33,259 nucleotides of DNA from the NCBI GenBank assembly GCA_039973685.1, contig JBDWKL010000021.1, positions 70,004-103,262 of the forward strand. Reading direction: 5' to 3'. Shown here in pieces: positions 15,450-26,443 of the stretch; position 1 is the stretch's first letter; each line of letters starts with the position of its first letter. Source of the DNA: Hyphomicrobiales bacterium. GTDB lineage: Bacteria > Pseudomonadota > Alphaproteobacteria > Rhizobiales > JACESI01. The position numbers and the translations under genes are program-made. Under the pieces are notes generated by a model, which was given only the letters and a program-made list of their open reading frames with translations, made no database searches and was not told the DNA's origin.

Positions 15450-16532
15450 TTAGCCCTGAAAAGAGGCCGCTAAAAGCGTAGCACCAAGCAAAAACACTAA
15501 ACTAGCACCAAGTAATTCGACAGACTTAAACATCCAGCCAGATGAACCGCTAATGGTGAGATAGCGTGTTGCAAGCCCTTTAGCCCACAGCGCAATCGTC
15601 GCCAAAGTTGTCACTGTAATCGCTGTTCCAAGCGCCATCGCAAAGGTAGATGCGACACCAACCAAGAACAAACCTTGAGCGGACGCGAACACCAAAACAA
15701 TCAAAGCGCCAGAACAAGGTCGCAAGCCAACAGACACAATGGCTGCCCAAGCAGAGCGCAAGGATAATGGGGCTTGCATGGTGCTCGGATCAACCGCATG
15801 ACCGCCACAACCACATTCATGATCGTGGTCGTGATGATGGTCGTGGCCATGGTGATCATGATTATGACTGTGTGCATGATCATGGTGATGATGGGCATGT
15901 GCTTCATGGTGGTGACAATCATCTTCATGGACAATCGGCCCAACATTGGTGACCAGTACCGTTTTCGACTTCAAATACGGCTGCACCCCTTTTTGCCACA
16001 ACAGATAAACACCAAGTAGTGCGATGAGCGCATAACTTGCGCGTTCAAACCAATGGGTTGCCTCAGTGATCGCAAAACTCGTCAGGTTGAATACAAAGAC
16101 AGCTGCGCCAATAAGCACAACCGCCACAAGCCCCTGCATAAAAGCCGCAAGGAATGAGATGATCATGCCTCGCTTAGCGCTCTGTTCATTGGCCAGCACA
16201 TAAGAAGAGATCACCACCTTGCCGTGACCGGGACCGGCTGCGTGAAATATGCCGTATAAAAAACTGAAACCCATCAGCAACCAAACGGCACTACCGTCTT
16301 CTTTGGCATCTTTCACAATACCAGTTAGCCTCTTATAAAAAGCAGCCTGCTGCTCATAGACCCAGCTTAAATTCTCGCGAAGGAACCCACCGCCCACTGG
16401 CGTTGGTGCCTGCGGTGCGGTTACACCGAAGGGAGATTTTTGTTGCGCGATGCCGCCTTCATTGAGACTGAAGAACAAAAATAATGTAAGGCAAACGAGC
16501 GTAAGGCTATAAACAAAACGATTTGATATCAT
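15450..16532 (-). CDS. NicO-family Ni/Co (or Zn) transporter with His-rich loop
   Basis: A 360-residue polytopic inner-membrane metal transporter. The NicO signature HAAGPGHGKVVISSY at about 97-111 and GLRPCSGALIVLVFAS near 260 are the metal-path motifs. Between them, at about 202-245, is a cytoplasmic or periplasmic loop with 22 histidines plus Cys and Asp, a metal-buffering segment. A signal-like first helix (VYSLTLVCLTLFLFFSL) precedes. The ATG overlaps the upstream DUF1007 stop as ATGA, showing translational coupling; a TTG 12 bp earlier is possible. NicO proteins include RcnA-type exporters and importers, so direction and metal (Ni, Co or Zn) are not certain. Partner is the DUF1007 protein. 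Confidence 0.88.
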   Translation of the reverse strand: MISNRFVYSLTLVCLTLFLFFSLNEGGIAQQKSPFGVTAPQAPTPVGGGFLRENLSWVYEQQAAFYKRLTGIVKDAKEDGSAVWLLMGFSFLYGIFHAAGPGHGKVVISSYVLANEQSAKRGMIISFLAAFMQGLVAVVLIGAAVFVFNLTSFAITEATHWFERASYALIALLGVYLLWQKGVQPYLKSKTVLVTNVGPIVHEDDCHHHEAHAHHHHDHAHSHNHDHHGHDHHHDHDHECGCGGHAVDPSTMQAPLSLRSAWAAIVSVGLRPCSGALIVLVFASAQGLFLVGVASTFAMALGTAITVTTLATIALWAKGLATRYLTISGSSGWMFKSVELLGASLVFLLGATLLAASFQG

Positions 16533-17209
16533 GAGGTTGGGCAATTAACTCTGATTGTGTTGGAAAGTTCGCCTTCTTGCCAATCGAAATTTTCTGGCAC
16601 AGATTCATCTGGACCAATTTCTGACAAAAGTTGGCTTTTAATTGGATCAATTTCTAGTGGTCGCGTCAAATCCGCCGAGCAATCTGATGCTTCGTCATTA
16701 GGGCCGAAAAGTGCGACTGCTTTTTCTTTTTCAAATTCCACCGCCACAAAAAATGTTGCATCAAACACTTCAATGGTGAGGTCCTTGAAACCAGTTTTTG
16801 GGTCAGGCTTTACAGGTTCAGCCATTGGCAAGGTATAAAACAAGGTCAGCAAACCTTCTTCGTACTCAAGCCAATAATCTTTCGGCTTGCCATACTTCGG
16901 GTCCGCAGCGCCCATTTGAACAAAAGTAAAATATTCAAAGTCAGCAACAGATTCGACATTAACCTGCGCAAGTTCGGCAAGTTCCTCGCGGCTATATTTA
17001 CCGTCACCATTCACGTCCAAGCCTTGGGTTGCAAAAGCGGCAAAGCCCTCGTCAAATTCCCATTTGTGGCGGATGGCAGTAAAATTGTTATTCGCGTCAA
17101 AAATCAGATCAGCTTTGGCTTTAATCCAAACATGCGGGTGAGCTGCGGCAGAATGAATGCCCGCAGCGATTAAAGCTAACAACATGATCGAACGAAACAA
17201 ATTCAGCAT
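16529..17209 (-). CDS. DUF1007 periplasmic protein (metal-associated)
   Basis: A 226-residue exported protein of the DUF1007 family. The signal peptide MLNLFRSIMLLALIAAGIHS ends at AAA, leaving HPHVWI at or near the mature N-terminus; this His-x-His motif is conserved in the family and suits metal binding. An EF-hand-like DVNGDGKYSREEL loop is at about 64-76. DUF1007 genes commonly sit next to NicO transporters, exactly as here (ATGA overlap), so it is probably a periplasmic metal-delivery partner. Its start overlaps the end of the LysR gene by 7 bp. The site near the start has GAGG. The metal is not known. Confidence 0.87.
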   Translation of the reverse strand: MLNLFRSIMLLALIAAGIHSAAAHPHVWIKAKADLIFDANNNFTAIRHKWEFDEGFAAFATQGLDVNGDGKYSREELAELAQVNVESVADFEYFTFVQMGAADPKYGKPKDYWLEYEEGLLTLFYTLPMAEPVKPDPKTGFKDLTIEVFDATFFVAVEFEKEKAVALFGPNDEASDCSADLTRPLEIDPIKSQLLSEIGPDESVPENFDWQEGELSNTIRVNCPTS

Positions 17210-18108
17210 CCCAGCTTTACCTCATTATGCGCGAACCAATCCGCGATAAAATCAACGAACACGCGCGTCTTGTTTGGTAGGTGACGACGATGGGGATAGA
17301 CCACGTGTACCGTGCGATCTTCCTCCACAAATCCTTCTAAAACCTCAACAAGATGCCCTTTTTCCAAATCACTGTTGATAAATATACGCGGAATTCGGGC
17401 AAAACCAAGACCAGCGAGTGCAGCAGCGCGCACCGCATTGGGTGAATTGATCTCTATACGGCTTTTAACCGACACGTTTATTTTTTCACCGTCATCCAAA
17501 AACGACCATGTATTGCGCGGCCTCATATTGAAATCAATAATGCAGGGCTTATCGCTAAGATCTTGAGGAACCTGTGGTTTTCCGTGCGCAGCCAAGACAT
17601 CTGGAGCAGCACAGGTGATCACTTGAAAGGTACCAATCTTGCGGGCAATGAGGCTTGAATCTTCCAAGTTGGCAACGCGAATGGCCACATCAAAACCATC
17701 CTCAACTAAGTTTACAAATCGATCATCCAGCGACACAGATAATTCCACATCTGGATAAGCTTTAGCAAACTCAACCAGCGCATTCCCCACAGAACCATCA
17801 CCCATCGTGCGCGGTAGGCTCACTTTTAATCGTCCACGTGGAGCAGCGTTGGTGTCTTGCACCTGCACCATCAAATCATCGATACGACCCAAAATATCTT
17901 GTGAATCGCGATAATAATGCTCACCCGCCTCCGTCAATGAGATCTGCCGCGTCGTCCGGTTTAACAAACGCACGCCAAGCTCATCTTCAAGCTCACTCAC
18001 ATATTTCGAGACAAGCGCTTTCGAGCGCCCAGCCGTTTTGGCAGCCGCCGTAAATCCACCAGCATCGGCCACCTGCAAAAACGTCCGCATTCGGGTTAAA
18101 GTGTCCAT
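17203..18108 (-). CDS. LysR-family transcriptional regulator
   Basis: A 301-residue regulator: an N-terminal winged helix (about 1-60; FLQVADAGGFTAAAKTAGRSKALVSKYVSELEDELG) and a periplasmic-binding-protein-like effector domain (about 90-295). The ATG at 18108 has AAAGG eight bases upstream, just inside the amidase stop region. It lies in the middle of a minus-strand run: amidase immediately upstream (4-bp gap) and DUF1007 immediately downstream (7-bp overlap). LysR regulators are usually divergent from targets, so its place inside the run is unusual. Targets could be the amidase/creatininase genes or the metal genes. Closest-looking group is the AaeR/DsdC-like subgroup, but I cannot be specific. 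Confidence 0.9.
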   Translation of the reverse strand: MDTLTRMRTFLQVADAGGFTAAAKTAGRSKALVSKYVSELEDELGVRLLNRTTRQISLTEAGEHYYRDSQDILGRIDDLMVQVQDTNAAPRGRLKVSLPRTMGDGSVGNALVEFAKAYPDVELSVSLDDRFVNLVEDGFDVAIRVANLEDSSLIARKIGTFQVITCAAPDVLAAHGKPQVPQDLSDKPCIIDFNMRPRNTWSFLDDGEKINVSVKSRIEINSPNAVRAAALAGLGFARIPRIFINSDLEKGHLVEVLEGFVEEDRTVHVVYPHRRHLPNKTRVFVDFIADWFAHNEVKLGC

Positions 18109-18111
18109 CAA

Positions 18112-19293
18112 CTAACCTTTAAAAGACGCGAACATCTCAAGCGCGACTTGTGTGAGCTGCCTGTCTGTCCCACGCGGTCCAATCAAACTAAGCCCCATCG
18201 GCGCATCGTGAAGGGTTGCCATTGGCAATGTGATTTGCGGCAAACCTGTGAGGCCTGACGTGCAAAGCAACATCAAGGCGCGGTTTCTGAAACTATCCAG
18301 TGTTGAAAAATCAATCTTCTTCAAAGGCGCAACGCTTGGCACGGTTGGTAAAACCAACACACCATCATCACCAAGCAGTTCTTCCACATGACGTGTGATA
18401 GCCGCCCGTTCCGCTGTTCCCTGATTAAATTCTTCGGTGGTGATTTTCGATGAATAATCAAAACGCTCCCGCACACCAGGACCAAGTTCAGGATTACACT
18501 TTGTAATCCAATCACCATGCGCCTGCCATGCCTCATAGGCTTGGCACCGACGGAAGGTCCAATACCAGCTCTCCATATCACCACCAGCAAGCGACACATC
18601 ATCTGTGCTAGCAAATTCAGTTACATGATTGATTGCGGGATCAAGCGCACGAGCTTCATCAATGCCCATTAAAAGGGTGAGGCAATCTTCTGCAACAAGC
18701 ACCCGTTTGGGTTTAAAGGTTGGTTCATCACCATCAAGCATGACATCGCTCACACGTTGATAGAGCTCCGCATTGGGTGTGAACCACCCAAAGGTATCGA
18801 AGCTCTCAGCAAGCGGCATGGTGTTTTCAAGCGAAAGACGGCCATGAGTAGCGCGAAGGCCAATTAGCCCGCAATAGCTGGCAGGCGCCCGCACAGAACC
18901 GCCCGTATCTGACCCTGTTGCAATATCAACCAAACCACCTGCAACAGCAGCAATAGAACCGCTAGACGATCCACCTGTGAGGCGATCAGGGGCTGCAGAA
19001 TTTATCGGCTGCGGATAATGGACATTGTCACCGTTGAGGCTGAAGGCGAGTTCTTCGGTGGTCGTCTTACCAACAAAGCGAGCGCCTGCGTCCAATAGCT
19101 TTTGAACCGAAGGGGCCGTCTTCAACGCAGGCTCTGCTTCAGCCATTTTAACCGGCGACCCACACCCTGTTTTATATCCGGCGACATCATAGATGTCTTT
19201 GACCGCAAGGGTTAGTCCAGCAAGCGGGCCACTTTCAGCATTAGCAACAGGAACGTCGGGATGATCCATGAAGGCATTGACGTGATCTTTCAT
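18112..19293 (-). CDS. Amidase-signature-family hydrolase (AMI1-like)
   Basis: A 393-residue cytoplasmic amide hydrolase. The Ser-cisSer-Lys triad is intact: Lys32 (AVKDIYDVAGY), Ser109 in GGSSSGS, and nucleophile Ser133 in GSDTGGSVRAPASY. The overall sequence resembles plant AMI1/indole-acetamide hydrolase-type enzymes. It follows the creatininase-family gene by 21 bp, with AGGAG seven bases before the start, and precedes the LysR gene by 3 bp, so it is in one transcript. With creatininase-type, 8-oxoguanine deaminase and molybdenum hydroxylase neighbours, a role in breaking down ureides or amides from N-heterocycles is plausible. Real substrate unknown. Confidence 0.9.
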   Translation of the reverse strand: MKDHVNAFMDHPDVPVANAESGPLAGLTLAVKDIYDVAGYKTGCGSPVKMAEAEPALKTAPSVQKLLDAGARFVGKTTTEELAFSLNGDNVHYPQPINSAAPDRLTGGSSSGSIAAVAGGLVDIATGSDTGGSVRAPASYCGLIGLRATHGRLSLENTMPLAESFDTFGWFTPNAELYQRVSDVMLDGDEPTFKPKRVLVAEDCLTLLMGIDEARALDPAINHVTEFASTDDVSLAGGDMESWYWTFRRCQAYEAWQAHGDWITKCNPELGPGVRERFDYSSKITTEEFNQGTAERAAITRHVEELLGDDGVLVLPTVPSVAPLKKIDFSTLDSFRNRALMLLCTSGLTGLPQITLPMATLHDAPMGLSLIGPRGTDRQLTQVALEMFASFKG

Positions 19294-19314
19294 CTTAAAA
19301 CTCCTGTTAGGCCC

Positions 19315-20121
19315 TCAACCTTGGTCCTTCCAAAGTCGGGACACATTGAACCGATTAACATCATCACATAGGGCGACAAAACCCGCTGCTTGATGGGCGA
19401 TCAGCTTGTCGCCTTTTTGCGAGGTTGCAATCGACGCATCGCCGACCGTTCCTTCAACATTCAAGTCTTGCGCTTTCCAGCCAAACGAAACCGGACCATG
19501 TGCTCGCAAGTAGGAAAACTCTTCCATCAAATCAAGTTGTGAAGAATGAAAATCTTTCGCTTCATCCATATCAACAAGATCAGGCCGCAAGGCAAGCATC
19601 AATGAGGTTTCAATGTCGCCGCCATGAATGCCATAGGTTTTTTCATGGTCTGAGAACAGACCGTCAGGCTCTCCAAACTTCGTCCAGCTCGTCGCCACCA
19701 CCAACATGTCAAAGCGCACGCGTAACTCTACAGCAACAATATCAATCAAAGCAGCATTGCCGCCGTGAGAATTGATGATGATCATTTTTTGAATGCCCGC
19801 GCGATGCAAGCTCTCACCAATTTCGATCCAAGCTTTAATGGCCGTTTGCCAATCAAACGTCAGCGTACCGGTTGAGGAAATATGCTCATTTGATTTGCCG
19901 ATCGTCTGCGTGGGCAAAACAGTGACGGGCAACTCGCTTGGCATCACGTTAAGGGCCGCATCAATCAACCCTTCGCCAATCACCGTGTCTGTGCCGAGCG
20001 GCAGGTGCGGTCCATGCTGTTCAATCGCTGCCACTGGCAAAACGGCAATCCAACTGGAGACATCCGACACGGCGAAGTCACCTGTCTTCATATCCTGCCA
20101 TCTTCGCTTTGGTCGCGGCAT
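19315..20121 (-). CDS. Creatininase-family amidohydrolase
   Basis: A 268-residue metal-dependent cyclic-amide hydrolase of the creatininase superfamily (members include creatinine amidohydrolase, MftE and formamide hydrolase FAPy deformylase). The metal-binding EQHGPHLPLGTD (about 35-46), INSHGGN and the GIHGGDIETSLML motif are present. The start at 20121 has AAAGGTG six bases upstream; a longer ATG at 20157 has a poor site. It is first in the creatininase-amidase-LysR-DUF1007-NicO run. The true substrate is unclear: creatinine is one choice, a purine ring-opening product (formamidopyrimidine) is another that fits the neighbouring 8-oxoguanine deaminase. Confidence 0.87.
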   Translation of the reverse strand: MPRPKRRWQDMKTGDFAVSDVSSWIAVLPVAAIEQHGPHLPLGTDTVIGEGLIDAALNVMPSELPVTVLPTQTIGKSNEHISSTGTLTFDWQTAIKAWIEIGESLHRAGIQKMIIINSHGGNAALIDIVAVELRVRFDMLVVATSWTKFGEPDGLFSDHEKTYGIHGGDIETSLMLALRPDLVDMDEAKDFHSSQLDLMEEFSYLRAHGPVSFGWKAQDLNVEGTVGDASIATSQKGDKLIAHQAAGFVALCDDVNRFNVSRLWKDQG

Positions 20122-20254
20122 AGAGCACCTTTTCAAAAAGTCAGCCTTCACCCCCATGATCTAACAGATGCGGGGATAAATACAAATTTGCAACCGCTGC
20201 TTCTCAATACCCCAAACTCAACGGCATTCATGTTACAGTTGGGGAGTAAAAACA

Positions 20255-20494
20255 TTGGATAAAATTTTAAGACGCGGCGACAATGGTGAGAGTGTTCGAG
20301 AACTTCAAGAACGCTTAAAGCGTGAATACATTCCAATTAAACCAGACGGCAATTTTGGGCCTGCGACAGAACTCGCGGTCAAAATTTATCAACTTGGCCA
20401 ACAAATCGACGCTGACGGCGTTGTCGGCTCCAAAACATGGAACCGATTTGATGATAGCAACGGCTACAAACTTCTGGCTACAAGGTATCGATAA
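20255..20494 (+). CDS. Peptidoglycan-binding-domain micro-protein (TTG start)
   Basis: A 79-residue protein made almost only of a PG_binding_1 fold: LRRGDNGESVRELQERLK, PDGNFGPATELAVKIYQ, DADGVVGSKTWNRF. It has no signal peptide or membrane segment. It starts at TTG 20255 with GGGGAG at 20241-20246, an eight-base gap; no ATG in frame exists. Its last 17 bp overlap the end of the deaminase gene on the other strand. It diverges from the creatininase gene. A stand-alone domain without export signal is odd; it may bind a non-peptidoglycan partner or be a remnant of a longer gene. Confidence 0.68.
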   Translation: MDKILRRGDNGESVRELQERLKREYIPIKPDGNFGPATELAVKIYQLGQQIDADGVVGSKTWNRFDDSNGYKLLATRYR

Positions 20495-21815
20495 ATTGCT
20501 TGGCGGCCTCACCGTGTTCTGCGCGTAGACGTGCAACATCAACACCAACGGGCATGCCATCTTCCACGGTCCACTTGCCAGCAACCATCACACGGTCTGC
20601 TGAATGGGCGCCGCATAATACAAGCGCTGCAAGTGGATCGTGAGCACCAGAAAAGCGCAACTCATCAAGCGTGTAAAACGCAAGGTCAGCCTGTTTGCCA
20701 ACCGCGATCTTACCAATATCAGTGCGGTTCAAACAGGCAGCAGATCCTTCTGTCGCCCAGCGATAAGCATCCAAATGCGTCACGCTTTCTGCATCATATG
20801 TCAGGCGGTTGATCATCAAGGCGTGGCGTAAGCTTTCCATCAAATTGGAATTATCGTTAGACGCTGATCCGTCTACACCAAGCCCAACGCGCACACCTGC
20901 TTTTTCCATCTCTTGGGTCCGGCATTGACCAGAGGCAAGCGTCATGTTCGAACTTGGGCAATGGCACACGCCAACTTTTGCTTTGCCAAGCCGCTTAATT
21001 TCATCATCATTGAAATGAATACCGTGGGCCAGCCAAACCCGCTCGTTCATCCAGCCCACATCTTCCAAATAGTCGACGGGGCGGTGGCCATATTTTTCAA
21101 GACAGAAAGCATCTTCATCATAGGTTTCACCCAGATGGGTATGGCAGCAGCAATCATATTTATGCGCCAAATTCATGCTTTCAACCATCAAGTCCTTGGT
21201 GTTGGTGAAGGGAGAACACGGCGCAAGGGCCACTTGCAACATCGCGCCGTCAGAGCGGTCATGGTACTTTTGCAGCACCCGCTCGCTGTCTGCCAAAATT
21301 GTATCCGTATCTTGAACAGCCCCATCAGGCGGCAAGCCACCATCCTTCTCGCTCAGGTTCATCGAACCACGGGTAAGCGTCATGCGGATGCCAAGTTTCG
21401 CTGCTTCTTCCGCCTGCACATCCATCGCATCTTCAATGCCAGCGGGATAAAGATAATGGTGATCTGACGCACATGTGGCGCCCGACATCATCAGTTCGGT
21501 CAAAGCAAGCCGTGTTGCAAGGCGGAACGATTCTGGATTTACATTGCGGGTCCAAATTGGATAGAGCGACACCAACCAAGGAAACAGCTCTTTGTTGATT
21601 GCGCTTGGATGGGCACGGGTCATGGTTTGGAAAAAATGGTGATGGGTATTGATCAAGCCCGGTATCACCACATGGCGTGAGGCGTCCATTACTTGATCAA
21701 CTTCAGGTGTGACACCAGACGCCACGAGTTCAACAATGCGGCTACCTTCAACGACGATACCGTCTTGTGCATCATCAGCCAAAATCGCCAGCGGTTGTTT
21801 AATCCAAGTTCTCAT
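20478..21815 (-). CDS. 8-oxoguanine deaminase (amidohydrolase family)
   Basis: A 445-residue Zn-dependent amidohydrolase that most resembles the Pa0142-type 8-oxoguanine deaminases (EC 3.5.4.32), which turn 8-oxoguanine into uric acid. Metal ligands are visible: LINTHHHFFQT (HxH motif region), CCHTHLGET, WLAHGIH and the aspartate in LGVDGSASND. The N-terminal MRTWIKQPLAI and the ELFPWLVSLYPIW segment are family hallmarks. Start ATG 21815 has GGGA before it; a TTG one codon earlier is unlikely. It follows the molybdenum hydroxylase by 56 bp on the same strand. Related s-triazine or cytosine-type deaminases are less likely. Substrate is inferred from sequence memory. Confidence 0.85.
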   Translation of the reverse strand: MRTWIKQPLAILADDAQDGIVVEGSRIVELVASGVTPEVDQVMDASRHVVIPGLINTHHHFFQTMTRAHPSAINKELFPWLVSLYPIWTRNVNPESFRLATRLALTELMMSGATCASDHHYLYPAGIEDAMDVQAEEAAKLGIRMTLTRGSMNLSEKDGGLPPDGAVQDTDTILADSERVLQKYHDRSDGAMLQVALAPCSPFTNTKDLMVESMNLAHKYDCCCHTHLGETYDEDAFCLEKYGHRPVDYLEDVGWMNERVWLAHGIHFNDDEIKRLGKAKVGVCHCPSSNMTLASGQCRTQEMEKAGVRVGLGVDGSASNDNSNLMESLRHALMINRLTYDAESVTHLDAYRWATEGSAACLNRTDIGKIAVGKQADLAFYTLDELRFSGAHDPLAALVLCGAHSADRVMVAGKWTVEDGMPVGVDVARLRAEHGEAAKQFIDTL

Positions 21816-21871
21816 CAACTATCCCAAACTTTCAATGCTAAATTTTGCTGCAAGCTCTTGGCAATTTCACC

Positions 21872-24178
21872 TTAAACGGTGACAAAGTCTACGCTTTTTC
21901 CAAGAGGTAAAACTCTTTCGCGTTTTCCAAGCAAATCATAAACCGCATTAGCAAGAGCCGGCATGGAAGGCGGCACACCTGGTTCACCGACACCGCCAAT
22001 ATGGCCAGTTGATTGCAAGATTTTCACTTCCACTGGCGGTGCATTACCGATGCGGAGCGCGTCATATTCGTCAAAATTACCTTCAACCACTTCGCCGTCT
22101 TCAAAGGTAATGTCGCCATAAATCGCGGCACTCAAGCCATATAAAATGGCGGATGTCACCTGCGCCTCAATGATGCTTGGATCAAACGCGGTGCCCACAT
22201 CAATCGCACACCAAACTTTGTCGATTTTGACACCGTCTTCTGTCTGGCTCACATCAATAATCTGCGCCGTTGGAGAACCAAAGGAATAACAAAACGCAAC
22301 ACCGCGCCCAAAGCCATCACCCCGACCACGGCCCGCACCTGTTGGCGCACCCCAGCCTGCAATATCGCCGACCGCACGCAATGTATCAAAAGAAGATTTA
22401 TCAACGTCTTGCATAAGTTTCAGGCGCATCGCCAATGGGTCTAACCGTTTCGCAGCAGCCAACTCATCAAGGAAGCTTTCAAGGAAAAAGGAATTATAAG
22501 AATTACCAACCGAGCGCCAAGAACCAACGGGCACATCCACCTCAGATAAATAACCGTTCACTTGGAAATTGGGAATGCCGTAAGGCTGATCGAAAGCTCC
22601 TTCAACCAACAACTTATCTGGACCTGGCGGTGCAATACCCAACACCCGTTTTGCTTGGCTTCGATAAACAGACGGCGCGGCAATATCGAGTTTCAACGCG
22701 CTCGGTCCATCCTCGCTAACCAGACCCTTCATGCGGGCGAGGCTTGCTGGACGATAAAAATCATGGCGGACATCTTCTTCCCGTGTCCATGTCATCTTGA
22801 TGGCACGCCCTGGCATGGCCTTAGCCAATTTTGCGGCTTGCACAGCGCTGTCATATTCTGGCTTACGTCCAAAACCACCACCAAGATAGGGCGTGTGAAC
22901 GCGAACGTTTTCAATGCTCAAGCCAACAGCTTTTGCCACGTGTTCTTGAATAACTGTTGGGGCTTGGTTTCCAACCCATACATCAAGCTCACCGTCTTTG
23001 AGTAAAGCAGTCGCATTCATCGGCTCCATAGGAGTATGGGCGAGATAAGGAACGCGGTAGCTTGCTTCAATCACATCTGGTGCAGCAGCTAATGCCTCAT
23101 CAATAGTGCCATCATTGCGTAGAACCGAATTAGGCTTCGCATCAAATGCTTTTTCAATCTCGGCATAAATGCCATCATTGTCCGAAGGGTAAGGCGCATC
23201 GCCCCACTCAATTTCTACCGCTTCGGCTGCTTGGAAGGCGGTCCATGTATTGTCAGCTATGACGCCAATCCCGTCCCATAAATCGACGATTTTCTCAACG
23301 CCCTTCATCGCCGCTGCTTTTGACCCATCGAAGGATAACATCTTGCCGCCGAGCTTTGGATTGATCCGCACGGTTGCAAACAGCATGTCATCTTGTTTGA
23401 CATCAATGCCGAATTCAGCTGTTCCCGTAACTTTGCCAACCATATCTTTGCGCGGCATGGCTTTGCCGAGATAGCGCCACTGGGATGGATCTTTCAAAGG
23501 CGGATTTTGCTCAACCTTTATCGCGGATGCATCAAGCGCTAAATCTTGATATTTAAGCCTGCTGCCATTGGGCGCGATCACTTCCCCATTGCTGGTTTTA
23601 AGTTCGCTTGCAGGCACATCAAATTCATAGGCTGCAGCTTCCATGATGGCGAGACGGGCCGCCGCACCTGCTTGCCGCATTTTCATAAAGCCATCACGAG
23701 TGGTCGTCGAACCACCCGTAATTTGTTGGCCCAAAATTTTACTCGCAACATCCGTTGCGCCTGAAACAACATTCTTCACCGCGCTTTGCGAATATTCAGC
23801 AAACGGAAGACCGAGTTTCAAAACTTCTTCATTGTAATAGGTGGAACTGGCTGGCCCGTGGATCACCTCAACATCATCCCAAGCAACATCCAATTCTTCA
23901 GCCACCATCGCCGCCAACGTGGTGTGAACGCCCTGCCCCATTTCAGCGCGCGGGGCGATAACTTTGACGCCCGCAGCCGTTATGAACAAATATGGATTAA
24001 GCGTGATTTCATCATCTGAATCGTGAAGCGGATTTTTAAGCGGCTTCTTATAGTGATAAGCGCCGAAGGCCACGCCACCTGCAACGGCCATTGATCCAAG
24101 CATAAAGACACGGCGCGTTAGGCTGCGTTTCTTTTTCGGCTTTTGATCTTCAACGTCCTTAGTATCCTGCTTCGCCAT
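21872..24178 (-). CDS. Molybdenum hydroxylase large subunit (IorB-like), Tat-exported
   Basis: A 768-residue molybdopterin-binding subunit of the xanthine dehydrogenase family, closest in layout to isoquinoline 1-oxidoreductase beta (IorB). A Tat signal (LTRRVFMLGS at about 20-30, then a hydrophobic stretch) suggests export to the periplasm. Mo-domain landmarks are APRAEMGQGVHT, YLGGGFGRK and, near the end, VGEPGVPP with the catalytic glutamate. The start is ATG 24178; a GTG at 24184 overlaps the upstream stop as GTGA. It is coupled with the 2Fe-2S subunit gene. No XdhC-type insertion factor or cytochrome partner is visible here. Substrate may be a purine or other N-heterocycle, or an aldehyde; not decidable. 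Confidence 0.9.
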   Translation of the reverse strand: MAKQDTKDVEDQKPKKKRSLTRRVFMLGSMAVAGGVAFGAYHYKKPLKNPLHDSDDEITLNPYLFITAAGVKVIAPRAEMGQGVHTTLAAMVAEELDVAWDDVEVIHGPASSTYYNEEVLKLGLPFAEYSQSAVKNVVSGATDVASKILGQQITGGSTTTRDGFMKMRQAGAAARLAIMEAAAYEFDVPASELKTSNGEVIAPNGSRLKYQDLALDASAIKVEQNPPLKDPSQWRYLGKAMPRKDMVGKVTGTAEFGIDVKQDDMLFATVRINPKLGGKMLSFDGSKAAAMKGVEKIVDLWDGIGVIADNTWTAFQAAEAVEIEWGDAPYPSDNDGIYAEIEKAFDAKPNSVLRNDGTIDEALAAAPDVIEASYRVPYLAHTPMEPMNATALLKDGELDVWVGNQAPTVIQEHVAKAVGLSIENVRVHTPYLGGGFGRKPEYDSAVQAAKLAKAMPGRAIKMTWTREEDVRHDFYRPASLARMKGLVSEDGPSALKLDIAAPSVYRSQAKRVLGIAPPGPDKLLVEGAFDQPYGIPNFQVNGYLSEVDVPVGSWRSVGNSYNSFFLESFLDELAAAKRLDPLAMRLKLMQDVDKSSFDTLRAVGDIAGWGAPTGAGRGRGDGFGRGVAFCYSFGSPTAQIIDVSQTEDGVKIDKVWCAIDVGTAFDPSIIEAQVTSAILYGLSAAIYGDITFEDGEVVEGNFDEYDALRIGNAPPVEVKILQSTGHIGGVGEPGVPPSMPALANAVYDLLGKRERVLPLGKSVDFVTV

Positions 24179-24180
24179 AA

Positions 24181-24654
24181 TCACGCATCCTCTTTCAGCA
24201 TTTTAGAGGCTTCGTGAATAGCGGCACGAATACGGGGATAGGTGGCGCAGCGACATAGGTTGCCTGACATTGCTTCATCGATATCTGCATCTGTTGGTTC
24301 TGGGTTTTCTTCCAGCAATGCCGATGCGCTCATAATTTGACCGGACTGGCAATAACCACATTGAGCAACTTGGTGTTTCAACCAAGCCTTTTGCACCATA
24401 CCTAAAGAGGCGGGCGTACCCATGCCTTCAATCGTGGTGACCGCACCTTCAACATCGCCAACGGGTGTCACGCAAGAACGAATAGGCTTACCGTCAAGGT
24501 GAACAGTGCAGGCACCACACGCAGCGATGCCGCATCCAAACTTAGTGCCCGTCAAACCGATGACATCCCGCAATACCCACAAAAGAGGCATCTCAGGGTT
24601 CACATCAATTTCGTGCTCAACTTTGTTGACTGTAAGCTTCATGGCTTTCGTCAT
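24181..24654 (-). CDS. [2Fe-2S] small subunit of molybdenum hydroxylase (IorA-like)
   Basis: A 157-residue iron-sulfur electron-transfer subunit. The plant-type cluster uses Cys41, Cys46, Cys49 and Cys61 ([16 protein letters not shown]). The second cluster, near the molybdopterin, uses Cys99, Cys102, Cys134 and Cys136 (QCGYCQSGQ and LCRCATYP). All eight are present. It has no signal peptide, as usual when the small subunit is co-exported with its Tat-tagged partner. It is immediately upstream of the large subunit and probably translationally coupled to it. ATG 24654 is used; ATG 24642 is an alternative. Secure call. Confidence 0.94.
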
Positions 24655-24728
24655 CCCAACCGTTCATTGTTAGAGCGACATGTAATCGTTTAGCAGGGTT
24701 TTACCACCCCAAAAATGAACCAATATTA

Positions 24729-25496
24729 TTAAGTCCTTAAGGCAGGCAATCCAATGCCAACAGCCTCAAACCCGCCATCAGCAGCCAGCGTTTGGCCTGT
24801 AATATAACTTGCCTCTGGGGAACATAGAAAACAAATCGCCTGCGCAATTTCTTGTTCGCTACCATAGCGGTTTAATGGCAAGGCATCGTGATACGCCGCG
24901 CGAATTTCAGGGGTATGAACAGCAAGCGCAAGTTTCGTATCAACCGGGCCGGGTGCCACCGCGTTCGCCCTGATGCCAAGCTCGCCAAGCTCTGCTGCTT
25001 GTTGCAGGGTAAGTTGAATGACCGCCGCTTTTGAGGTGCCGTAAGCAACCCGCAATGTGCTTGCTCGAAGGCCAGAGATGGAGGCAATGTTCACAATCGC
25101 TGCCCCCTCTTTACCCGCTTCCTTCGCGCCTTTAACAAGCAAATCCGTCATGGCTTGCACCATCAAAAACGGACCATCTAAATTGGTCGCCATAACCCGC
25201 CGCCAACGTTCAAAACTGGTTTCTTGAATAGGGCCAAAGTCTGCAACGCCTGCATTATTAACGAGCGCATGAAGCGTGCCAAGTTTTTCTGAAATTTGCC
25301 CAGCAAGTGTTGCCACCTGATCAGGGTCAGAAACATCCGTCACAATCGGCACAACATCTGCAAAACCTTCAGAGGCGAGTGCCAGCTCATCGCCGTCAAT
25401 ATCAACCATTGCAACACGCCAACCTTTGCCCAAAAGCAATTGCGTTGTCGCCAAACCAATACCGCGCGCGGCACCAGTGACCAAAGCTGTTTTCAT
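24729..25496 (-). CDS. SDR family NAD-dependent oxidoreductase
   Basis: A 255-residue classical SDR. TGAARGIG is at 7-14, Asp32 after strand 2 points to NAD, NNAG is at 80-83, and the active-site residues Ser139, Tyr152 and Lys156 (YGTSK) are complete. The start has GAGG eight bases upstream. It lies 29 bp after the EamA gene and 74 bp before the 2Fe-2S gene on the same strand, so it may belong to the same transcript. It is not a near copy of the SDR at 3274. Substrate unknown; a diol, alcohol or 3-oxoacyl compound could fit. Confidence 0.88.
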   Translation of the reverse strand: MKTALVTGAARGIGLATTQLLLGKGWRVAMVDIDGDELALASEGFADVVPIVTDVSDPDQVATLAGQISEKLGTLHALVNNAGVADFGPIQETSFERWRRVMATNLDGPFLMVQAMTDLLVKGAKEAGKEGAAIVNIASISGLRASTLRVAYGTSKAAVIQLTLQQAAELGELGIRANAVAPGPVDTKLALAVHTPEIRAAYHDALPLNRYGSEQEIAQAICFLCSPEASYITGQTLAADGGFEAVGIGLPALRT

Positions 25497-25525
25497 CTGT
25501 CTTACCTCAAAATAAAATTTGGTTG

Positions 25526-26443
25526 TTACTTAGCCCGATTTAACAACCGTCCGTCAATCACGACGAGCGCTAAACCAATGAAGCCCATGCCAATAATATG
25601 CTTGGTTTCCAGGCTCTCATTTAAGAACCAAATTCCCAACAAAATAGCACTTGGTGGAATTAAAAACGTCACCAACGAAAGATTGGTCGCACCCGCGCGC
25701 GCGATAATGTTGAACACAAGCACATAAGCAATCGCCGTTGAAAATACGGCAAGGGCAATAAGAGAAAGCACGGTGAATTGAGATGGCAGGGCAAGTGTCC
25801 ACGGTTGATCAACCAACAACATAACGGGAAACAGCAAAAGGGTAGACGCCGTCACCTGCCCCGTCGCAGACGCCATCGGCTTGATCCCCATCTTGCTAAA
25901 CCGTCGGCCCCAAATACCAGCAAAACCGTAGGAGACACCAGCACCCAAAATGGCGAGTTGTGCGAATAAATTAACGCCCAGTCCGTCCAACGCATCACCA
26001 CCAATCAAGACCACAACACCAATAAGGCCAAGCACCACGCCTATTACTTTAAGCGGCGTCATCTTTTCGTCAGCAGTCAAAAAATGCGCGATAATAATCG
26101 TAAAAACGGGCATCATACTGTTGAAGATTGACGCAAGCCCTGATGCAATATGAGACTGCCCCCACACAATCAGGGTGAAGGGAACGACGTTGTTTAAAAT
26201 TGCCATGCCAAAGAAGGCTTTCCAAGCGCTTCCTGTCATTGGCATTTGCACCTTCAAAAGCGGCAACATTAGCCAAAGCACAACGGCGGCAAGCCCAACC
26301 CGCGCCACCACGACAGTGAATGTGGGCAGCTCTTGTACCGCCACACCTTGGAAAAAGAACGACCCGCCCCAAAGCACCGACAAGATAATAAGCATGCCCC
26401 AAACAAGCGGCGACATGGTTTTCGTGATGGTGTGATCGCTCAT
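25526..26443 (-). CDS. EamA/DMT-family transporter
   Basis: A 305-residue membrane protein with about ten helices in two EamA halves. The first starts with LVWGMLIILSVLWGGSFFFQGVAV, and the second holds GVSYGFAGIWGRRFSKMGI and ends with LLGIWFLNESLETKHIIGMGFIGLALVVIDG. DMT carriers move small metabolites (often export). It is divergent from the iron alcohol dehydrogenase and upstream of the SDR, so it may move a substrate of the downstream enzymes. GGAAA precedes the ATG. Substrate cannot be told. Confidence 0.9.
   Translation of the reverse strand: MSDHTITKTMSPLVWGMLIILSVLWGGSFFFQGVAVQELPTFTVVVARVGLAAVVLWLMLPLLKVQMPMTGSAWKAFFGMAILNNVVPFTLIVWGQSHIASGLASIFNSMMPVFTIIIAHFLTADEKMTPLKVIGVVLGLIGVVVLIGGDALDGLGVNLFAQLAILGAGVSYGFAGIWGRRFSKMGIKPMASATGQVTASTLLLFPVMLLVDQPWTLALPSQFTVLSLIALAVFSTAIAYVLVFNIIARAGATNLSLVTFLIPPSAILLGIWFLNESLETKHIIGMGFIGLALVVIDGRLLNRAK

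Follow-up and report, generated by a model that had tools for sequence, protein, structure and literature searches.

The window considered here is a 33,259-nucleotide stretch of a Hyphomicrobiales genome (assembly GCA_039973685.1, contig JBDWKL010000021.1, positions 70,004 to 103,262 of the forward strand), in which a gene for an 8-oxoguanine-deaminase-family enzyme stands upstream of one for a creatininase-family metal hydrolase. We give even chances to the reading that this stretch is composite, an extra block joined to a resident site, and that the deaminase and the creatininase are a functional pair in a two-step route. The resident site would hold a short-chain dehydrogenase/reductase (SDR), the creatininase, and an amidase, then DUF1007 and NicO, with a LysR gene between in the window, and the block, IorA-IorB-deaminase, would be an addition to that site directly upstream of the creatininase. 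In the first step, the deaminase, of the amidohydrolase superfamily, would strip the 2-amino group from a 2-amino-4-oxo N-heterocycle, the candidates being 8-oxoguanine (giving urate) and isocytosine-type or pterin-type compounds. In the second, the creatininase-fold metal hydrolase would cut an amide or formamide bond, either in that product or in a sister product of oxidation. We infer the functional coupling of the pair, the order of its steps, and its substrate; a role of the amidase in the route is only a possibility.

Pairing of the deaminase with a creatininase in the order

Deaminase and creatininase matches were surveyed over 150 genomes of the order. Of the 27 deaminase matches with at least 69% identity, 20 are followed by a same-strand creatininase within 5 kb and 24 by one within 12 kb; at 56–68% identity a downstream creatininase was found for 2 of 22, both of them tandem copies beside a linked deaminase. 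The linked deaminases span eight of the 12 family codes at the 5 kb limit and nine at 12 kb, and the organisms include named Hyphomicrobiales (Stappia, Prosthecomicrobium, Kaistia, and Oricola). The creatininase cluster was present in 32 of the 58 loci with a called deaminase, with genes called by a crude home-made caller and the family behind each cluster number checked on single representatives. By a rough estimate, chance adjacency in genomes of ~4 Mb is well under 1%. The preliminary description of this DNA had suggested a new salvage route for oxidised purines or another N-heterocycle and a comparison of neighborhoods across relatives. That comparison did not find the full gene set co-occurring, while the core pair of deaminase and creatininase was kept; the link between an N-heterocycle deaminase and a creatininase-family enzyme is supported, recurring far above chance, and a role in oxidised-purine use may hold, as urate-degrading enzymes are encoded elsewhere in the genome. 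A place for the molybdenum hydroxylase in the route is not supported.

The creatininases with a neighboring deaminase (33 of the 54 in the tree) do not form one clade (approximately unbiased [AU] test, p 0.00175; the caller had missed the deaminase in L057, and its creatininase was relabelled for the tree tested). Five label changes were counted on the creatininase tree (bootstrap 4–6), against a mean of 17 after shuffling. The window and L077–L079 are sisters in the deaminase tree (support 95, quick tree) but not in the creatininase trees, and because the two trees disagree here, partners seem to have been exchanged between deaminase and creatininase lineages. We found no description of this pairing in searches of an open-licence library, where a single paper (PMC8745165) contains both "8-oxoguanine deaminase" and "creatinin", as entries of one table that concern different toxins.

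Two loci (L048 and L052) have another arrangement, in which two different creatininases, one on the opposite strand, flank a RidA-like gene and the deaminase.

Gene content of the window and the same site in siblings

The genes and the minus-strand run listed in the preliminary description agree in position and Pfam domain with what we found, the expected domain exceeding its curated Pfam cut-off in each protein from EamA through LysR. The features are as follows.

25526..26443, minus strand: EamA/DMT-family transporter, 305 aa (PF00892, 125 bits)
24729..25496, minus strand: SDR dehydrogenase, 255 aa (Pfam adh_short_C2)
24181..24654, minus strand: IorA-type [2Fe-2S] subunit, 157 aa, with eight Cys (PF01799/PF00111)
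21872..24184, minus strand: IorB-type molybdopterin subunit (PF02738/PF20256)
20478..21818, minus strand: 8-oxoguanine-deaminase-family enzyme, 445 aa counted from the codon at 21815 (NF006055)
20255..20494, plus strand: small antisense gene encoding a peptidoglycan-binding domain, 79 aa (PG_binding_1 PF01471, E 3.6e-15)
19315..20157, minus strand: HGGN-type metal hydrolase of the creatininase family (PF02633, 231.5 bits)
18112..19293, minus strand: amidase-signature amidase, 393 aa (NF006169)
17203..18111, minus strand: LysR regulator (Pfam domain)
16529..17209, minus strand: DUF1007 protein (PF06226)
15450..16544, minus strand: NicO-family nickel/cobalt transporter (PF03824)

By these coordinates, the intergenic gaps are at most 74 bp from EamA to the deaminase and at most 21 bp from the creatininase to LysR. 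Because the gaps are short within each run, and 320 bp and the antisense gene separate the deaminase from the creatininase, two predicted transcripts, EamA to deaminase and creatininase to LysR, are a fair reading of the layout. The antisense gene, whose 3′ end overlaps that of the deaminase by 17 bp, had been noted as a micro-protein at 20255 interrupting the run; it proved a genuine plus-strand gene, present at the site in all three siblings at 50–62% identity, and is outside the proposed route. Scans for promoters (13 vs. a shuffled mean of 8.8, standard deviation 2.9) and terminators (12 vs. 11.5, standard deviation 3.2) were not used as evidence.

The genus comparison covered four genomes, that of the window (G000) and the siblings G043, G118, and G083 (loci L154–L156). 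G043 and G118 share one gene order: SDR (80 and 78% identity), upstream of the creatininase (L154 and L155), then the antisense gene, creatininase (68 and 63%), amidase (72 and 71%), DUF1007, the NicO transporter, and ferrochelatase. G083 retains the antisense gene together with amidase, DUF1007, NicO, and ferrochelatase; at E 1e-30 nothing in it matched the creatininase, and its version of the site lacks an SDR orthologue. The DUF1007-NicO order is unchanged in all three loci, and these two genes, a metal-transport tail, are the backbone of the site.

No deaminase match was found in G043, G083, or G118 at E 0.001, and IorB had weak matches only, with none at E 1e-80; IorA had no match in the three loci, nor did EamA at E 1e-4, and an iron-type alcohol dehydrogenase (Fe-ADH) and a second EamA of the window region are likewise absent from the site in all three. 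The extra block in the window is IorA-IorB-deaminase (20495–24728, ~4.2 kb), between the SDR and the antisense gene. The preliminary description had grouped these genes together; as one unit they could not be confirmed, since G043 and G118 have SDR-creatininase-amidase without IorA-IorB-deaminase and no deaminase, creatininase, or amidase was found in 12 loci with IorB homologues. In the creatininase tree, the window enzyme groups as sister to the sibling enzymes (support 100/99). Because the deaminase is sister to that of L077–L079 but the creatininase to those of the siblings, our reading of the block leans towards gain in the window over loss in the siblings.

The LysR gene could not be assigned as a fixed member of either unit, the evidence pointing both ways. 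It is absent between amidase and DUF1007 in L154, L156, and L157 and is present in G118 as two reading-frame pieces (L155:11576-12498); it lies ~2 kb from DUF1007 in L042, L044, and L054 and adjoins it in S. meliloti pSymB (L174).

Predicted activities of the pair

The window deaminase scored 645.7 against NF006055 (curated NCBIfam cut-off 532), and its alignment to PDB 3hpa and 7ww2 covers most of the protein. The catalytic and metal residues Gln, HxH, Glu, His, and Asp are present by this alignment and by motif search. It thus resembles 8-oxoguanine deaminase, for whose family we take Pa0142 to be the type member, in family score and in metal and catalytic residues; it differs, as do its close relatives, in neighboring a creatininase. 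The creatininase-linked deaminases mostly carry APC[AS]PF, and 7ww2 carries APCSPFSVS. Two papers name 8-oxoguanine and isocytosine as substrates within the family (PMC6186785) and isoxanthopterin and pterin-6-carboxylate for related deaminases (PMC5270733). The window enzyme is predicted to act on an 8-oxoguanine-like 2-amino-4-oxo N-heterocycle. NdmH, an N2,N2-dimethylguanine hydrolase, clusters by similarity with the 8-oxoguanine deaminase of P. aeruginosa according to its description (PMC13054789). We rejected NdmH as an identity for the window enzyme, which lacks the CQNN signature: C200 is present, and S201 and T204 replace Gln and Asn, when residues are mapped by motif from the numbering in that paper.

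Tandem deaminase copies stand directly before the creatininase in L051, L055, and L082–L084, and in four of these five loci (not L084) one copy has APN, with Asn for the usual Cys of APC.

A structure model of the creatininase (258-aa form) had a predicted local distance difference test (pLDDT) score of 85 and matched creatininase structures with Z 22.5–22.9. It superposed on 3lub with Z 22.9 and a root-mean-square deviation (rmsd) of 3.2 Å over 234 residues, which places it in the fold superfamily, and on the creatininase 3a6j with an rmsd of 2.5 Å over 218 residues. Like true creatininase (creatinine amidohydrolase; 1j2t, 1q3k), the window enzyme has the fold and the invariant EQHG...D motif; unlike it, it aligns Gly with E122 (HGGN) and Tyr with W174, residue numbers that we took from PDB titles, and it scores 79.4 against a cut-off of 235 for TIGR04448. 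E122 is presumably a metal ligand and W174 a substrate-side residue of creatininase. These two replacements make it improbable that the window enzyme acts on creatinine. The scores for MftE (102.1 vs. 172), IolN (46.1 vs. 245), and ArfB (25.2 vs. 180) were also below their cut-offs, so that with true creatininase all four NCBIfam equivalog identities were rejected.

Molybdenum hydroxylase

The molybdenum hydroxylase fits the two-subunit IorAB-type layout, with separate 2Fe-2S and molybdenum subunits and no flavin adenine dinucleotide (FAD) subunit adjoining. IorB has a GEPG motif at 732 and a twin-arginine-like signal (TRRVFMLG, with RR at 23). The export-signal pattern was matched in 11 of 12 IorB homologue N-termini, where in L142 the match lay in an upstream stretch (SRRAF also occurs in the sequence) and L139 has KR. 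Because of this signal and the motif shared among homologues, IorB is predicted to be exported and to work in the periplasm. Its nearest solved relative is 8gy3_C, the large subunit of an aldehyde dehydrogenase (249 bits). We rejected xanthine dehydrogenase (XDH) as an identity for IorAB: the molybdenum subunit falls below both equivalog cut-offs (164.4 vs. 780 for NF043082; 77 vs. 849.5 for TIGR02965), and a canonical XdhABC is already encoded on contig C43.

In the 12 IorB homologue loci (36–60% identity), no deaminase, creatininase, or amidase was found; one locus (L138) carries a distant SDR (33% identity) within a few kb of IorA/IorB. XDH-family genes adjoin the deaminase in L091, L072, and L073 (domains scanned for L091 and L072), but they are of another type, and there is no creatininase within those stretches. 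The 871–872-aa and 142-aa genes beside the pair in L048 and L052 were considered as a molybdenum hydroxylase and set aside, since by their N-termini (they were not family-scanned) they are unlike such enzymes. The hydroxylase had been put forward as a member of the route; its export-type signal, the missing sibling orthologue, the lack of a common context in 12 loci, and the scores below the XDH cut-offs all speak against this. The molybdenum hydroxylase and EamA are probably passengers, and the apparent link of the hydroxylase to its neighbors here is probably misleading.

Wider creatininase neighborhoods in relatives

Of 54 rows for a cytosine-deaminase-like enzyme, whose representative passes PRK07583, 33 have a creatininase no more than 12 kb away. 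The enzyme occurs in 52 genomes, 51 of which also encode the creatininase; across the whole set, 88 of 150 genomes do. A block recurs that comprises, by scans of representatives, a RidA-like protein, an NMT1-type ATP-binding cassette (ABC) importer, the cytosine-deaminase-like enzyme, an FAD oxidoreductase, a flavodoxin-fold oxidoreductase, and the creatininase. Annotations show the same block, with importer, oxidoreductases, and RidA-like protein, in Paroceanicella, Pseudooceanicola, and Rhizobium leguminosarum. A close PDB relative of the FAD oxidoreductase is 6v42/6v43 (407 bits), which has a generic name; the structure model of the oxidoreductase was poor (pLDDT 35). We know of no described pathway for this set of genes. 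The importer block was also seen in L158–L170, L175–L177, and many of L037–L090 (Hyphomicrobiales and Rhodobacterales).

We would tentatively propose, at clearly less than even chances, a so far undescribed catabolic route of Hyphomicrobiales and partly of Rhodobacterales, in which an HGGN creatininase would receive the products of guanine- and cytosine-type ring deaminases and open or deformylate them. Candidate substrates are oxidised guanine, a pterin, or another 2-amino-4-oxo heterocycle of this kind, and the route would include NMT1-type ABC uptake, the FAD oxidoreductase, and the RidA-like imine hydrolase. No importer, oxidoreductase, RidA-like, GTPase, or WD40 genes were found near the pair in the window. 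In a study of xanthine-riboswitch purine clusters (PMC7373994), an NMT1-type importer and amidohydrolases occur together, as they do in the creatininase clusters of the relatives. Control by the xanthine riboswitch (NMT1-motif RNA) was rejected, with no Rfam match at the gathering score in the window and 13 loci.

Alternative explanations

The oxidised-guanine clean-up is one alternative, and an unlikely one, in which the deaminase would turn 8-oxoguanine into urate and the creatininase would deformylate a formamidopyrimidine or open an imidazolone from further oxidised guanine. The NF006055 match of the deaminase fits this, as does the family member ArfB, which by its NCBIfam name is a deformylase of a formylamino-pyrimidine nucleotide, and the urate route is encoded in the genome. 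On contig C43 there are XdhABC, urate oxidase PuuD, HIU hydrolase, a fused allantoinase-OHCU decarboxylase, ureidoglycine aminohydrolase, and ureidoglycolate lyase (the last called on one subfamily cut-off passed), with a guanine deaminase ~6 kb from this cluster, so that urate, if formed by the deaminase, could be passed on through these enzymes. The ArfB score of the window creatininase, however, is far below the cut-off, as given above, and where relatives carry importer genes close to the pair, these point to a nutrient from outside, not to repair.

Apart from the C43 cluster, the genome encodes a second set of HIU hydrolase (two copies) and OHCU decarboxylase, with an adenosine deaminase, in L186 (G000:C25:14000-33900), together with an NMT1-like binding protein and a second similar one (not scanned). 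L147 (G000:C43:78000-97900) holds a fused molybdenum hydroxylase, two PF06684 proteins, and an aldehyde ferredoxin oxidoreductase, with adjoining importer-like open reading frames (read by eye), and might be another N-heterocycle route.

A tie of the creatininase to metal homeostasis is equally improbable; the enzyme would then belong with zinc or metal genes (COG0523-type GTPase, WD40, DUF1007/NicO), and metal supply or Zur control, instead of a shared substrate, would account for its pairing with the deaminase. A COG0523-type GTP-binding protein and a WD40 protein follow the creatininase consecutively in S. meliloti pSymB and L077–L079. According to Haas 2009 (PMC2770081), COG0523 subfamily 5 clusters with WD40, znuABC, and "creatinase" genes, and several members have predicted Zur sites. 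The GTPase and WD40 genes beside a creatininase-type gene in some relatives resemble these zinc-linked clusters, but neither gene adjoins the window creatininase, and 22 of the 32 pair loci have neither in the stretch examined.

Vertical inheritance, by which the deaminase and the creatininase would be neighbors from one ancestor without functional coupling, is more doubtful still. The linked deaminases do fall mostly in one region of the tree, whereas the flanking genes vary among linked loci and the gene trees conflict on the partners for the window and L077–L079. Least probable is a single pathway in which the molybdenum hydroxylase, deaminase, creatininase, amidase, and SDR act sequentially on one N-heterocycle, EamA transporting the substrate or the product, for the short same-strand gaps from EamA to the deaminase and the XDH-family genes adjoining the deaminase in three loci are outweighed by the predicted export of the molybdenum subunit, its missing sibling orthologue, the 12 IorB loci without partners, and the other type of those XDH-family genes in stretches without creatininase.

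The two-step route of deaminase and creatininase has several points against it as well. Both the 69% identity line and the two distance limits (5 and 12 kb) were picked after the rows had been seen, and the AU test was run after a quick creatininase tree had been seen. The label changes fit gain or loss, and if a single old pairing had been lost repeatedly, the clade would be broken as well. Because the creatininase occurs without a deaminase in many genomes, two siblings included, its own substrate may be another. If the deaminase yields urate, the canonical C43 route needs no creatininase. A search of the window genome for the cytosine-deaminase-like enzyme gave no match at E 1e-80, and a COG0523-type GTPase or WD40 gene is present in 10 of the 32 pair loci, in agreement with the metal-homeostasis alternative. 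Finally, although the amidase passes its family cut-off (531.7 against 391 for NF006169), only 4 of 50 amidase rows (G000, G043, G118, and G071) have a creatininase within 5 kb, three of them in this genus; in the named loci L077–L079 the amidase also follows the creatininase at a distance of ~3 kb. The amidase had been counted among the partners; as it stands beside the creatininase mainly within the genus, its membership of the route is weakly supported, the link being weak outside the genus.

To our knowledge, few of the many proteins annotated as "8-oxoguanine deaminase" or "creatininase family" have been assayed. The pair and the wider cluster of importer, oxidoreductase, and RidA-like protein make up a concrete gene set, which could show the role of HGGN creatininases in alphaproteobacteria.

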